Shown here: piece after piece, positions 55,700 to 61,305 of the stretch | Numbering within the stretch: position 1 is the first letter of the stretch | Layout: each line of letters starts with the position of its first letter | DNA from: Bacteroidota bacterium | GTDB lineage: Bacteria > Bacteroidota > Bacteroidia > B-17B0 > Aurantibacillaceae | DNA: 64,000 nucleotides | Reading direction: 5' to 3' | NCBI GenBank assembly: GCA_005787585.1 | Contig: SYAL01000032.1 | Coordinates: 1-64,000 of the forward strand | Program-made: the position numbers and the translations under genes | Notes under the pieces: model-generated | What the model saw: the letters and a program-made list of their open reading frames with translations, nothing else | The model's database searches: none | What the model was told of the DNA's origin: nothing

Positions 55700-56002
55700 T
55701 TATTTTAAATCACAAGTAGTAGATACGTTCGAGGATAAGCCAAAACCCGGTGGAAAATAAGTCTTAATGGCATTTTCTTCTGTTGTTTTTATAGATTCAG
55801 CTTCGTGGTCACAAGCTGATTTTGCTTGAGTCTCTGTCATCTTTTCACTGTAAGGTACTATTTTAGATTTTGAATATACTGAATCAACAGAGCCCATAAA
55901 AGATATTACAGTGTTGGTTTCACAATCACAAGTATATGTTTTTTTACAAGAAATAATTGCAATTACAACTATAGAAATTAAAAATAAATGAGAATTTTTC
56001 AT
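55700..56002 (-). CDS. Small cysteine-bearing lipoprotein, paralog 2
   Basis: 100 residues. Lipoprotein signal with IISC at about 16-19, then KKTYTCDCETN. Five cysteines in all; SEKMTETQAKSACDHEAESI and a final TTCDLK align with the neighbouring gene at 56020-56325. I do not recognise the family. After lipidation of the first Cys four remain, which could form two disulfides. It lies 17 bp behind its paralog and is presumably cotranscribed and surface- or periplasm-facing. Confidence 0.75.
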   Translation of the reverse strand: MKNSHLFLISIVVIAIISCKKTYTCDCETNTVISFMGSVDSVYSKSKIVPYSEKMTETQAKSACDHEAESIKTTEENAIKTYFPPGFGLSSNVSTTCDLK

Positions 56003-56019
56003 GTTTAAATTTTTATATT

Positions 56020-56325
56020 TTATTTTATTTTACAATCTGTGGTAACAACAACATTCGGATCAGGAGTGTTTTTGCCGTTATCCGTCATTAGTGCATCAAA
56101 ATTTGATTGAATGCCAATTTCTTCATGATCACAAGCTGATAAGGCCTGAGCTTCTGTCATCTTCTCGCTATAAACAGATGTGTTATTTTTATAAACAAAG
56201 GTTTCGACAACTCCAGTTGAATCATCAGTTATTTTTTCAGTAACCGTGCAATCGCAAGTATAGGCTTTTTTGCAAGAAGGAAAAAACGTTACAATAAATA
56301 AGAAAAGTAAGATAATTTTTTTCAT
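56020..56325 (-). CDS. Small cysteine-bearing lipoprotein, paralog 1
   Basis: 101 residues. Signal segment MKKIILLFLFIVTFFPSC ends in a lipobox-like FPSC, then KKAYTCDCTVTEK. Shared blocks with the downstream paralog are K-YTCDC, SEKMTEAQALSACDHEE and the terminal TTDC. The middle region is diverged, so the duplication is not very recent. No known domain. Divergent from the carotenoid/retinal fusion gene with 88 bp between. Confidence 0.75.
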   Translation of the reverse strand: MKKIILLFLFIVTFFPSCKKAYTCDCTVTEKITDDSTGVVETFVYKNNTSVYSEKMTEAQALSACDHEEIGIQSNFDALMTDNGKNTPDPNVVVTTDCKIK

Positions 56326-56413: not shown

Positions 56414-58474
56414 ATGAATAAAACAAAATCATCCACTGCTTATATTAACAATGAAACGGTTTATGATTTCCTTTTTATAGGTCTTGGCGCAGGCAATAGT
56501 TTAATTTTTTTATCTTTATTAAAAAGAGGCTTGGTTTCAAATAAAAAAATCGCATTTGTTGAGCCAATAAAAAAGAATACAAATGATAAAACATATTGCT
56601 TCTGGGCCTTACCAAATGATTCAATTGTTAATGATCTTAAGCCTATAATAAGTCATTTTTATACAGCCATTGAAGTAAACGGCTCTCCTTCACAAAATAT
56701 TGAAAAACAACCCTATTATTTTATTAAAAGTATAGATTTATATGAGTATCTAATAGATAAACTGATAAATGAAGATATTCCTATCTTAAACTTTTATGCA
56801 GATACAATAATTTCTGATGATGAAATTTATCATTTAAATACTTCAGGTGGGACATTAAAATCCAAATTAATATTTGATAGTAGAACCCCCCCATATTCTC
56901 AAATTAATTCTAATGAAATATACTTAAATCAATCATTTTATGGATTACACATTAAATGTGAAAAAGCTGTTTTTTTTGAAGATTCTTTTGAAATGATGAA
57001 CTTTAATGTAGACCAAAGTGATTTTACTCAATTTGTTTATACACTCCCCTTCTCTTCAAAAGAATCATTAATTGAATTAACCCGATTTGGATCAGAAAAA
57101 ATTGATTTGGATTACGCTAAGAAAATTTTAGATAAAAAAATAAAAGCTGAATATGGCAGCTATGAAATTGTTGCTGAAGAATCTGGTTGTATTCCAATGA
57201 CAAGCTATCAACATCCTAAAAACGATTTTCAAGGCGTTTTAAATACTGGCGCTAAAGCAAATTTAATTAAGCCGAGCACAGGATATGGATTTAAAAACAT
57301 GTATAATTTTGCTTCAATAGTTTCTGATAATATTTACAACGAAACCTTTAAACATTTTAATCAAATATCACTCCATAAAAAAAGTCGTTTCCGGTTTTAC
57401 GATATTCTTTTGCTTACTATACTTCTTAAATGGCCTAAAAAAGGAAAAAAGATTTTTACGAACTTGTTTAAAAGCCAAAATATATATACTATCTTTTTAT
57501 TTTTAGATGAAAAAACATCTTTTGGTCAAGAAATTAAAATATTTGCCTCTTTGCCCATATTTACTTTTATAAAATCTTTATTTATACATTTAAAAAAAAT
57601 AAATGCTTTGCGTTATTTATTTTCGTTTGTTGGTGTTTTAATTTATTTTATTTTGCAATATTTCAATAACGTTATATCACTTAATTTCGGGTATTTCTTA
57701 ATAATTATCGGCTTATTATTATTTGGAATCCCTCATGGAGCAGTTGATCACTTGCTGAAAGCTCAAAATAAAAGACCATTGTTTGAATTTATTTTTAGGT
57801 ATTTAATAATAATTATATCCTATTTTATATTTTGGCGCTACTTTCCATTATTTTCGATTATACTATTTATACTATATTCTTCTTTTCATTTTGGTGAATC
57901 CGAATTAGAGGAAATGGGAGTCCACTTGAATAATATTAAAATCTATATAAGGGGTTTTCTAATAGGATCATCTGTTTTATTCTTTATTATTTTTACCCAT
58001 TTGAATGAATCAATTGAAGTTATCTCAAAAATTAGAGGCTTAGATAATATCAAATTATACACAAATGAATTAATAATGTATAAATTTCCTCTGTCTCTGA
58101 TTAGCGTGGTTTATCTTTTATGTGAATTTTTATTATTTAAAAAAGCTGGCTTTTTAATGCTGATTTTAATGCTTATTACGGGCTGTAAAATGCCATTAAT
58201 TTTGGCTTTTTCTCTATATTTTATTTGCCAGCACAGTTTAAATGCTTGGGGGCATTTAAAACTTAAATTAAATATCAATTCTATCCAATTGTATAAAAGT
58301 GCGCTGCCTTATTTAATTGGCGCCTCCTTTCTTTTCTTATCTTTATTTATTTTTGATTTCACTGGTCTTTTAAATTTATATCGTTTGCAAGCAGATGGCT
58401 TTATTTTTTTAGCATGCATAAGCCTGCCCCACTTCTTACTTATGCATCAATTTTATAAAAAAATTATTACTTAA
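56414..58474 (+). CDS. Fused lycopene cyclase (CrtY) and beta-carotene 15,15'-dioxygenase (Brp/Blh)
   Basis: 686 residues in one uninterrupted frame. Residues 1-395 are a CrtY-type cyclase: FIGLGAGNSLI (21-31) for the dinucleotide, YCFW (61-64), FDSR (154-157), TQFVYTLPFS (205-214), EESGCIPMT (255-263), and GAKANLIKPSTGYGF (279-293). Residues about 398-686 are a multi-span Brp/Blh domain with its histidine motifs GIPHGAVDH (438-446), FHFGE (491-495), QHSLNAWGH (606-614) and LPHFLLMH (671-678). CrtY makes beta-carotene from lycopene, and Blh cleaves it to two retinals. Both halves look complete, so the fusion could channel lycopene to the chromophore of the rhodopsin at 60601. Upstream carotenoid genes (crtEBI) are not in the window. 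Confidence 0.93.
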   Translation: MNKTKSSTAYINNETVYDFLFIGLGAGNSLIFLSLLKRGLVSNKKIAFVEPIKKNTNDKTYCFWALPNDSIVNDLKPIISHFYTAIEVNGSPSQNIEKQPYYFIKSIDLYEYLIDKLINEDIPILNFYADTIISDDEIYHLNTSGGTLKSKLIFDSRTPPYSQINSNEIYLNQSFYGLHIKCEKAVFFEDSFEMMNFNVDQSDFTQFVYTLPFSSKESLIELTRFGSEKIDLDYAKKILDKKIKAEYGSYEIVAEESGCIPMTSYQHPKNDFQGVLNTGAKANLIKPSTGYGFKNMYNFASIVSDNIYNETFKHFNQISLHKKSRFRFYDILLLTILLKWPKKGKKIFTNLFKSQNIYTIFLFLDEKTSFGQEIKIFASLPIFTFIKSLFIHLKKINALRYLFSFVGVLIYFILQYFNNVISLNFGYFLIIIGLLLFGIPHGAVDHLLKAQNKRPLFEFIFRYLIIIISYFIFWRYFPLFSIILFILYSSFHFGESELEEMGVHLNNIKIYIRGFLIGSSVLFFIIFTHLNESIEVISKIRGLDNIKLYTNELIMYKFPLSLISVVYLLCEFLLFKKAGFLMLILMLITGCKMPLILAFSLYFICQHSLNAWGHLKLKLNINSIQLYKSALPYLIGASFLFLSLFIFDFTGLLNLYRLQADGFIFLACISLPHFLLMHQFYKKIIT

Positions 58475-58650: not shown

Positions 58651-59571
58651 ATGAATAAATTTAAGCATCTATATCAATACCTTCTTTCAGATAAAACTAA
58701 AAAAAGAAGTGAACAAATTATTTTATTAATAGCCATTGCCAGCTTTATTGTGCATTTAATAATTATTTGCCTTGTTGACTTTGGTATTATTTCGTTAGTA
58801 AATCCATCAGATCTTCTTAAAAATCCTATAGCAGCTATTTATACCCCTTTTTCATTTATTCTTATTTATGAGGTATACTTATTAATTCATTATCTCCCAA
58901 AATCTATTACAACATATATCAGCAAGCAATATGAAATCATTACACTTATTATTATCCGACGATTATTTAAAGATCTTTCCAACTTATCGCTCTCATCTGA
59001 CTGGTTTAAAATAAAATATGATTTACAGTTTACATATGATTTAGTGGCCTCCGTTCTGCTTTTTTTACTTATTTTCCTATTTTATAAACAAAGTAAAAAA
59101 AGATACCGAAATAATGATTTAGAAGATTCTCAAATTGAAGGGACTATTAAATTTATAAAAATTAAAAAAGTAGTTGCTGCATCTTTAGTTCCCGTTCTGT
59201 TTTTTGTTGCTATATATTCATTTGTTATTTGGTTTTTAAGTTCTACTAAACTTAGTTCAGATGCAGAGGTCTCATTTAAAAATATCAATAATATTTTCTT
59301 TGAACAGTTTTTTACTATTTTAATTATTGCAGATGTTGTTTTATTATTGTTTTCTTTTTTCTATACCGTTGAATTTCATAAGGTCATTAGAAATTCTGGA
59401 TTTATAATTTCTACCATCTTAATTAGGATATCTTTTTCTGTTACAGGATTATTAAACACATTACTAATTTTGACTGCTATTATTTTTGGTTTACTTATAC
59501 TTGTTATTCATAATAAATTTGAGAAAGAAATTGCACTTGAAAAATTAAAAATTAAAAATTTAAATAATTAA
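58651..59571 (+). CDS. Multi-span membrane protein of unknown function in the rhodopsin locus
   Basis: 306 residues; I do not recognise the family. Hydrophobic spans lie near 22-43, 62-82, 130-147, 173-194, 219-243 and 250-290 (one or two spans), giving 6-7 helices. An interfacial stretch near 84-112 (LPKSITTYISKQYEIITLIIIRRLF) contains regularly spaced basic residues and resembles channel-type linkers. A basic loop (KQSKKRYRNND, about 147-157) and a basic C-terminal tail suggest cytoplasmic sides. No catalytic motif is visible. Its place between the retinal-forming fusion and the rhodopsin suggests a role in light physiology, ion flow or membrane assembly, but that is inference only. Confidence 0.7.
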   Translation: MNKFKHLYQYLLSDKTKKRSEQIILLIAIASFIVHLIIICLVDFGIISLVNPSDLLKNPIAAIYTPFSFILIYEVYLLIHYLPKSITTYISKQYEIITLIIIRRLFKDLSNLSLSSDWFKIKYDLQFTYDLVASVLLFLLIFLFYKQSKKRYRNNDLEDSQIEGTIKFIKIKKVVAASLVPVLFFVAIYSFVIWFLSSTKLSSDAEVSFKNINNIFFEQFFTILIIADVVLLLFSFFYTVEFHKVIRNSGFIISTILIRISFSVTGLLNTLLILTAIIFGLLILVIHNKFEKEIALEKLKIKNLNN

Positions 59572-59658
59572 TTAAAATCATATTTGAAACTAAAGTTTAA
59601 ACACAATTTAATTGCTCTTGCAAATATTTAATAATCTAAATAATATAAAAATAAATAA

Positions 59659-60003
59659 ATGGAATATATTATAAAATTAACACAAGTAACTATAGCAATA
59701 TCTGTAGCTTATGTATGGATTTTTAGGTTTGAAAACGTGCTTAAAGAGTTTAAGCAATTCGGGCTTAGCGATATAACTCGAAATTTTGTAGGAGCAACAA
59801 AAATTTGTTTAGCAACTTTGCTTTTAGTGGGTATTTGGTTTTCATCATTTGTATTTATTACCTCAATTCTTATGGGCTTTTTCATGATAGCAGCTCAATA
59901 TTTTCATTTTAAAATAAAAAATTTTTTTATAAAACATTTGCCTTCTCTTATTCTTTTGATTTTATGTGCTTTTTTAGCAATTACATCAAAACCCCCTCTA
60001 TGA
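59659..60003 (+). CDS. Small DoxX-like membrane protein
   Basis: 114 residues, four predicted spans. RFENVLKEFKQFGLS followed by FVGATKICLATLLLVGIW fits the DoxX-like pattern of a first helix, amphipathic loop and glycine-bearing second helix. Its TGA overlaps the next ATG (ATGA at 60000-60003). DoxX-like proteins are linked in some bacteria to quinone or redox functions; nothing specific can be read here. Confidence 0.7.
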   Translation: MEYIIKLTQVTIAISVAYVWIFRFENVLKEFKQFGLSDITRNFVGATKICLATLLLVGIWFSSFVFITSILMGFFMIAAQYFHFKIKNFFIKHLPSLILLILCAFLAITSKPPL

Positions 60004-60338
60004 ATATAGAAAAAATTTGTATTCTATTGTCAAGCATTTCTTTCTTTGCTTATGTTGCTTCGTATTTTTTATACCCCCATATGAAAAACGAATTCAAAAG
60101 ATTTAATATAGATAAACTCGGACTTTTAATCATAATATTAGAACTTTTCGGGGCCATGGGTCTATTAATCGGACTAAAATTTAATCTAATTTTAATAATA
60201 TCGTCTGTAGGCCTTGCCCTACTTATGTTATCAGGCTTAGTTATAAGAATAAAATCAAAAGATAGCTTCTGGATATCATTCCCTGCCTTATTTTATTTGT
60301 GCTTAAATGCATATATTTTTTTGGGGGCAATAAAATAA
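60000..60338 (+). CDS. Small DoxX-like membrane protein, second copy
   Basis: 112 residues from the ATG at 60000, which overlaps the previous stop by 4 bp; the frame is open upstream but this start gives the expected MNIEKICILLSS first helix. Four spans. LYPHMKNEFKRFNIDKLGLLIIILELFGAMGLLIGL is the DoxX-like block, matching the first copy's KEFKQFGLS...VGATKICLATLLLVG. The pair is probably a diverged duplication that may form a heteromer. Confidence 0.7.
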   Translation: MNIEKICILLSSISFFAYVASYFLYPHMKNEFKRFNIDKLGLLIIILELFGAMGLLIGLKFNLILIISSVGLALLMLSGLVIRIKSKDSFWISFPALFYLCLNAYIFLGAIK

Positions 60339-60600: not shown

Positions 60601-61305
60601 ATGGAACATTCTTTAGAAATTGCAACAGACAATTACGTAGCTTTTACGTTTTTTATCGGAACCATGGCCATGATGGCCGCATCAGTTTTCTTCTTTTTTG
60701 AACTTGGAAACACAAAAACTGAATGGAGAACATCTATTCTCGTTTCTGGTTTAATAACTTTCATCGCAGCAGTTCACTATTACTACATGAGAGATTATAA
60801 TCTTAGCACTGGAAAATCTCCAATTTTTTTCCGTTATGTTGATTGGATTCTTACTGTTCCGTTAATGTGTGTTGAGTTTTATTTAATCACCAAAAAAGCT
60901 GGTGCTAAAATAGGTTTGTTATGGAAGTTAATTTTCGCTTCAGTAATTATGTTAGTAACAGGTTATTTTGGAGAAGCTGTTTACAAAGGCAATGCAGCAA
61001 TGTGGGGTTTAATTTCAGGTTTAGCTTATTTCTATATTGTATATGAAGTTTGGATGGGTGATGTTGCAAAACTATCTAAATCAAGTTCCCCTTCTGTACA
61101 AAAAGCTGTAAATTCATTACTAAAATTTGTAGTTATTGGATGGGCTATTTATCCAATTGGATATATGATTGGAACTGCTGATGGTCAGTGGTATTCTTTC
61201 ATGAAAGATAGGGCAAGTATGGACATTGTTTACAATATCGGCGATGCTGTAAACAAAATTGGTTTTGGACTTGTAATTTATGCATTAAGTAGAAGCGAAG
61301 ACTAA
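60601..61305 (+). CDS. Proton-pumping rhodopsin (proteorhodopsin/xanthorhodopsin-like)
   Basis: 234 residues, seven helices. Helix C reads RYVDWILTVPLMCVEFYLI: Asp81 (proton acceptor), Thr85 and Glu92 (donor) form the DTE set of outward proton pumps. Met89 is at the spectral-tuning site (Leu in green, Gln in blue proteorhodopsin), so green absorption is likely. His59 (AAVHYYYMR) matches the proton-acceptor partner His75, and Lys219 in GDAVNKIGFG binds retinal. Helix E has WGLISGLAYF; aligning it to bacteriorhodopsin puts Gly136 at Trp138, the site that is Gly in carotenoid-binding xanthorhodopsin. No ion-pump NDQ or NTQ motif. The gene has its own upstream region and terminator. Confidence 0.97.
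   Translation: MEHSLEIATDNYVAFTFFIGTMAMMAASVFFFFELGNTKTEWRTSILVSGLITFIAAVHYYYMRDYNLSTGKSPIFFRYVDWILTVPLMCVEFYLITKKAGAKIGLLWKLIFASVIMLVTGYFGEAVYKGNAAMWGLISGLAYFYIVYEVWMGDVAKLSKSSSPSVQKAVNSLLKFVVIGWAIYPIGYMIGTADGQWYSFMKDRASMDIVYNIGDAVNKIGFGLVIYALSRSED

Follow-up and report, generated by a model that had tools for sequence, protein, structure and literature searches.

A single gene joining a CrtY-type lycopene cyclase to a Brp/Blh dioxygenase in aquatic Bacteroidota, and its possible role as a branch dedicated to retinal

In proteorhodopsin photosystem cassettes, crtE, crtB, crtI, crtY and blh are separate genes, and one crtY serves the whole pathway. In the window (the whole stretch of 64,000 nucleotides analysed here), however, crtY and blh occupied one open reading frame. 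This raised the question of whether the frame is a real gene or an artefact, and of whether its product could be a bifunctional enzyme committed to retinal. In the proposed mechanism, the N-terminal flavoprotein CrtY half would cyclise the two ends of lycopene, yielding beta-carotene. The C-terminal multi-helix Blh half would then split this product at its 15,15' bond, and the two retinal molecules so formed would supply the neighbouring proteorhodopsin. The gene and its two domains were located as follows.

56414..58474, + strand: crtY::blh fusion gene of 686 aa, a putative bifunctional lycopene beta-cyclase / beta-carotene 15,15'-dioxygenase with full-length single-frame homologues
56465..57571, + strand: CrtY-type lycopene cyclase domain, residues 18-386 (PF05834, E 9e-35; flavoprotein fold match)
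57710..58453, + strand: Brp/Blh beta-carotene 15,15'-dioxygenase domain, residues 433-680 (PF15461, TIGR03753; multi-helix membrane domain)

The gene started with ATG and ran for 686 codons in a single stop-free frame. The Pfam scan of the protein gave two domains only, Lycopene_cycl and BCD, both far over the cut-off. PF05834 scored 120.9 bits (cut-off 23.4) and covered profile positions 1-376 of 380, and PF15461 scored 109.2 bits (cut-off 28; E 3.5e-31). In addition, the NCBI Blh model TIGR03753 scored 117.4 bits, over its cut-off of 95.25. The NCBI CrtY models matched the fusion below their cut-offs (TIGR01790, 87.9 against 209.5 bits; TIGR01789, 51.9 against 215.2 bits). The standalone CrtY encoded elsewhere in the same genome was likewise under both cut-offs, with 68.6 and 57.0 bits, respectively, which indicates that these cut-offs do not discriminate in Bacteroidota, and the CrtY half was therefore assigned at the level of the Pfam family only. 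Both Pfam domains were complete in all 38 fusions scanned, in agreement with the preliminary description, in which CrtY and Blh were joined in one membrane protein. The same description held that neither a stop nor a start lies between the halves; there was indeed no stop and no ATG, but an in-frame TTG was present at 57608-57610. Thus, the fused gene is confirmed as real, with a complete CrtY-type cyclase and a complete Brp/Blh dioxygenase.

The region between the domains was the place where an error could have created the fusion.

57572..57709, + strand: interdomain junction, residues 387-432; its length is kept (42-49 aa between aligned ends) and a near-continuous helix is predicted
57592..57599, + strand: run of eight A at the junction, where an indel would split the gene; also found in G004, with different bases after it

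With one A fewer in this run, CrtY would end at a TAA. The stretch that had been singled out as suspect beforehand (57590-57620) was well chosen, since the run sits exactly at the junction. An assembly or frameshift artefact at these eight A that joined two separate genes is nevertheless extremely improbable. The congeneric G004 (88% identical) had the same run followed by different bases and its frame was still fused, dozens of further relatives were fused without any such run at the junction, and length and reading frame were conserved jointly. As a general explanation, an artefact at the run was refuted by these relatives. Chance joining was also excluded, because the gene was conserved over its full length at 34-88% identity. 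The point that speaks for an artefact, besides the eight A themselves, is the 63%-identical locus L163:380-2481, in which crtY and blh formed two frames with an ATGA overlap of four bases at the fusion junction. This split lay beside a run of six A, and it reflects either a fusion that was split again or an indel introduced by sequencing. Relatives had been proposed as the check for a stop or frameshift near residue 395; such breaks were few, and among the 347 relatives in the named genome collection, 73 of the best 80 loci carried an uninterrupted fusion. L164 and L088 were fusions broken by frameshifts. Programmed slippage at the junction was considered as well and rejected: runs of at least seven A occurred at 10 of 100 junctions, compared with 10.9% of other stretches of these genes, and so were no commoner there than elsewhere.

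Among 60 related genomes, full-length fusions in a single frame were found in G004, G046 (52% identity), G049 (37%), G027 (36%) and G055 (34%). The Blh-family search of 395 Bacteroidia genomes gave a match in 72. When the retrieved loci were read with profiles made from the two domains of the window's protein, 34 single-frame fusions of 634-702 aa were collected, mainly from these genomes, the window and G004 included. Three more genomes with the fusion, all from a different class, came from a sample of 395 genomes across the phylum. The named hosts were all Bacteroidota, except for one short contig in a Parcubacteria bin; the contig of this fusion (L135), 4.5 kb long and assigned to Candidatus Parcubacteria, is probably a misbinned piece of a Bacteroidota genome. 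The virus contigs searched held no relatives. A 958-aa open frame around the Blh match of G605 was a spurious frame in GC-rich DNA and was discarded as a further fusion. The fused form is widespread in water-living Bacteroidota.

A tree was built from 73 Blh domains, and in it the 34 fused forms grouped with five others in one clade (SH-aLRT 99). Among the five, L089 and L090 were cut by contig ends, L088 was frameshifted, and L087 and L112 were separate Blh. The clade persisted when the three genomes of the other class were added, with support falling to 90.8. Excluding L087 and L112 from it was rejected (p = 2e-11). These two genes (L087:5348-6406 in G019 and L112:2239-3087 in G256) had no CrtY half, and each of their genomes carried only one lycopene cyclase, of the ordinary kind. 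Their nested position suggests that the CrtY half was apparently lost secondarily. For CrtY, a single clade of all fused forms was not rejected (p = 0.62, with L088 treated as a frameshifted fusion and not as unfused). Since all fused Blh fell in one clade, a single origin of the fusion fits. Within the window's genus, the fusions of G000/G004 and of G027 belonged to different sub-clades, which points to horizontal transfer. These trees would be best explained by a fusion that happened once and was then transferred, spreading patchily and splitting again in rare cases. Furthermore, the fusion genome G098 held a second, short Blh beside its rhodopsin (L086:5411-6181). The first histidine motif of this Blh, GxPHGxxD, was degenerate (LEQSIT), and the gene may be the decaying remnant of an earlier Blh whose place the fusion took.

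The residues expected to take part in catalysis were compared across fused and unfused forms.

57074..57076, + strand: Glu221 in LIELTRF, putative catalytic acid of the cyclase, conserved across CrtY
57734..57736, + strand: His441 in GIPHGAVD, candidate iron ligand; H in 34/34 fused
57887..57889, + strand: His492 in FHFG, candidate iron ligand; H in 34/34 fused and 34/34 other
58232..58234, + strand: His607 in QHS, candidate iron ligand; H in 34/34 fused and 34/34 other
58430..58432, + strand: His673 in LPH, candidate iron ligand; H in 34/34 fused and 33/34 other

Glu221, which we take to be the catalytic Glu from knowledge of the CrtY/LCYB family, was present in all fused (35/35), linked (8/8) and standalone (13/13) CrtY. 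The flavin-site glycines G23/G25 were found in every fusion that covered these positions, and the CFW motif, K286, TGY and D330 were retained in all or nearly all fusions. The residue following the putative catalytic Glu was mostly L or V in the fusions, compared with Y in standalone CrtY. In the Blh half, Asp445 was invariant (34/34 fused). Several positions set fused Blh apart from separate ones, among them W612 and H529, which were invariant in the fused forms, and position 606, which was mostly Q in them. A review reports that the 66A03 Blh depends on four histidines, His21, 78, 188 and 192 (PMC9227343); by motif and spacing, H441, H492 and H607 fit the first three of these. A His four residues after the third was absent from all 73 aligned Bacteroidia Blh, fused or separate alike, and its absence would thus be a trait of the phylum's enzymes and not a defect of the fusion. 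H673, invariant among the fused Blh, is a candidate alternative to it.

Between the window and G004, dN/dS was 0.18 (Nei-Gojobori) and 0.14 (Yang-Nielsen) for the CrtY half, and 0.27 and 0.41, respectively, for the Blh half. Both halves are under purifying selection, with dN/dS below 1 in each. The AlphaFold joint model from 38 fusions reached a mean pLDDT of 88.6 and a pTM of 0.82, and the junction in it was an almost unbroken helix of good confidence. The CrtY half was modelled with the fold of the geranylgeranyl reductase group of flavoproteins (3oz2, Z 24.7, rmsd 3.9 over 349 residues). The Blh half alone gave an all-helical model (pLDDT 90.8), and its long hydrophobic helices by hydropathy are those expected of a multi-pass membrane protein. 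A PDB sequence search gave no relative of the whole fusion or of the Blh half, and a fold search with the Blh half gave nothing at E <= 0.001 (best Z 7.2 over 99 residues); the absence of a PDB match does not show that the fold is new.

A CrtY half that served as a carrier or docking module, delivering carotene to Blh while a separate cyclase makes beta-carotene, could account for the substituted residue after the Glu, for the scores under the NCBI CrtY cut-offs and for the second cyclase found in nearly every fusion genome (see below). This is quite improbable, as the flavin-site glycines, the CFW motif, the Glu, K286, TGY and D330 were kept, dN/dS of the CrtY half was low, and the standalone CrtY of the same genome scored under the same cut-offs. 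A working cyclase half is the preferred reading.

The presumed user of retinal was encoded near the fusion.

60601..61305, + strand: proteorhodopsin, 234 aa (PF01036, E 1.2e-41)

This protein had D81/T85/E92, a DTE-type motif suggestive of a proton pump, and a Lys in the last helix, and it was the only rhodopsin found in its genome. Of the 35 fusion genomes, 34 had a rhodopsin gene, and none of these had more than one; the exception was a genome 84% complete. Among the best 80 named loci, 47 of the 51 with both genes had the rhodopsin directly upstream on the same strand, at 28-154 nt. The gene order in the window was the fusion, a 306-aa gene, two DoxX-like genes and the proteorhodopsin. The 306-aa gene had no Pfam match and occupied, with the two consecutive DoxX-like genes, positions 58651-60338; G004 shared this gene and the adjoining DoxX gene. 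On the other side, at 55700-56325 (- strand), two tandem paralogous lipoprotein-like genes of about 100 aa each had a common CKK-YTCDC start and were also found in G004. The invariant Glu and His residues, the selective constraint on each half and the association with rhodopsin lend indirect support to the suggestion, made from the sequence beforehand, that the protein may have both activities.

Whether the fusion is dedicated to retinal was approached through the other cyclases of its hosts. A second, separate lycopene cyclase was found in 33 of 35 fusion genomes, as CrtYcd in 25 and as a standalone CrtY in 8. The genomes with adjacent but separate crtY and blh also had one (7/7), giving 40 of 42 for fused and adjacent forms pooled, compared with only 1 of the 27 genomes with blh alone. 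Fisher's exact test for fused against lone blh gave p = 5e-14 by genome and 5e-9 by genus; because the sampled genomes share ancestry, both values serve as guides rather than as exact probabilities, and the one by genome overstates independence. The fusion genomes without a second cyclase were G318 (77% complete) and G379 (92%), and G320, a congener of G379, carried a second CrtY. The single lone-blh genome with two cyclases had two CrtYcd genes (G399:C2 and G399:C8), a case that neither fusion nor adjacency accounts for. Most simply, the pattern would mean that whichever cyclase is linked to Blh, by fusion or adjacency, is the extra one and serves retinal. The idea of a commitment of carotenoid to retinal, already put forward for this gene, thus gains support from the genome comparison.

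Two working enzymes might also have been fused for co-expression and a fixed ratio only; the cyclase would then feed the general beta-carotene pool, and retinal synthesis would be neither dedicated nor insulated. Some genomes evidently manage with crtY and blh as unfused pairs, whether separate, overlapping or adjacent (L091, L094, L103, L104, L105, L108 and L116), and the CrtY half was lost in two lineages that still keep Blh; both observations suit such an arrangement. It would, however, make the second cyclase redundant, yet this enzyme accompanied nearly all fusions and every pair and was almost absent beside lone blh, and we consider the explanation unlikely.

The ordinary carotenoid pathway of the window's genome lay on another contig, where crtB, crtI, crtD, cruF, a crtZ-like hydroxylase gene and the standalone crtY were clustered. 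This crtB-crtI-crtD-cruF-crtZ cluster is typical of monocyclic xanthophylls, and its CruF, CrtD and CrtZ are expected to convert lycopene and gamma-carotene into such pigments. It was close to the Nonlabens set for monocyclic myxol. In E. coli, the Nonlabens CrtY alone gave beta-carotene, and CrtY together with CruF gave mainly 1'-hydroxy-gamma-carotene (PMC11855829), indicating that CruF diverts the substrate: the hydratase acts on the second end before a ring can close there. Linking a cyclase to the cleaving enzyme would shield the retinal supply from such competition. CruF was present in 33 of 35 fusion genomes, compared with 26 of 34 genomes with unfused Blh. As a cause of the second cyclase, the presence of CruF was rejected, being common in both groups and without discrimination. 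Because CruF is nearly as common with unfused Blh, competition by CruF does not force the fused arrangement, and retinal can in principle be made beside a monocyclic pathway even where no cyclase is set apart for it.

In the reading preferred here, the fusion would form a private retinal branch beside an ordinary carotenoid pathway that has its own separate cyclase. One polypeptide would hold the cyclase and the cleaving enzyme at one place and in one ratio, so that the beta-carotene meant for retinal might be less exposed to the hydratase and the hydroxylase. We infer both activities, the dedication to retinal and the insulation from xanthophyll synthesis. The protein is probably a bifunctional, membrane-anchored lycopene-to-retinal enzyme forming a private branch insulated from xanthophyll synthesis. 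More tentatively, and with rather less than even probability, it may be an insulated synthase that channels its substrate from lycopene to retinal, with beta-carotene moving within the membrane or along it from the flavoprotein half directly to the Blh site, having arisen once and spread in aquatic Bacteroidota as a portable two-gene phototrophy cassette of rhodopsin and fusion. In the present data, such a direct transfer, as suggested beforehand, would look the same as simple co-location or co-expression.

Fused forms accounted for 34 of the 73 Blh in the tree, or roughly half of the sampled Bacteroidia Blh genes. Surveys that look for separate blh and crtY, or that count cyclases, may therefore misinterpret the pathway. 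The occurrence of second cyclases suggests how a cell could draw on one lycopene supply for both retinal and monocyclic xanthophylls, by means of a private, tied cyclase. Moreover, vitamin A production needs the cyclase and the dioxygenase combined, for which the natural CrtY-Blh fusion is a possible design. The fusion unites two known enzymes, is widespread and apparently arose once, and the genomic evidence is consistent with a retinal-dedicated branch.

No description of a bacterial CrtY-Blh fusion was found in open-access full texts, which cover few subscription journals; domain databases may list the architecture. The closest described system found was a four-domain CrtI-CrtB-CrtYc/d-Blh protein of Thecamonas trahens, read as serving retinal production (PMC10016063). 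As in the window's fusion, one polypeptide there contains a lycopene cyclase and carries Blh at its C-terminus. It belongs, however, to a eukaryotic protist and has an unrelated membrane CrtYc/d cyclase plus CrtI and CrtB, whereas the fusion is bacterial, uses a flavoprotein CrtY and covers the last two steps only; Pfam gave PF05834 and PF15461 alone, and CrtYc/d, CrtI and CrtB domains were absent. The fungal and thraustochytrid proteins CrtYB and CrtIBY likewise fuse successive carotenoid steps, but these are different steps with a different cyclase family, and they are not directed to retinal.

The N-terminal half resembled known CrtY-type cyclases (PF05834) in its whole domain, motifs and predicted fold. 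Known CrtY cyclases are single-domain proteins, generally in bulk carotenoid clusters, whereas that of the fusion carries Blh and forms its own lineage, near crtY genes adjoining blh. The C-terminal half was like Brp/Blh proteins, e.g., 66A03, in its whole domain, membrane helices and rhodopsin neighbour, and, by motif and spacing, in three of the four histidine positions tested in 66A03. Known Brp/Blh proteins have about 250-350 aa, and the fused Blh made up a separate clade. Compared with the proteorhodopsin cassettes, the window had the same pathway and the same clustering with rhodopsin, but the last two steps were carried by one gene and a second cyclase was encoded elsewhere in the genome.
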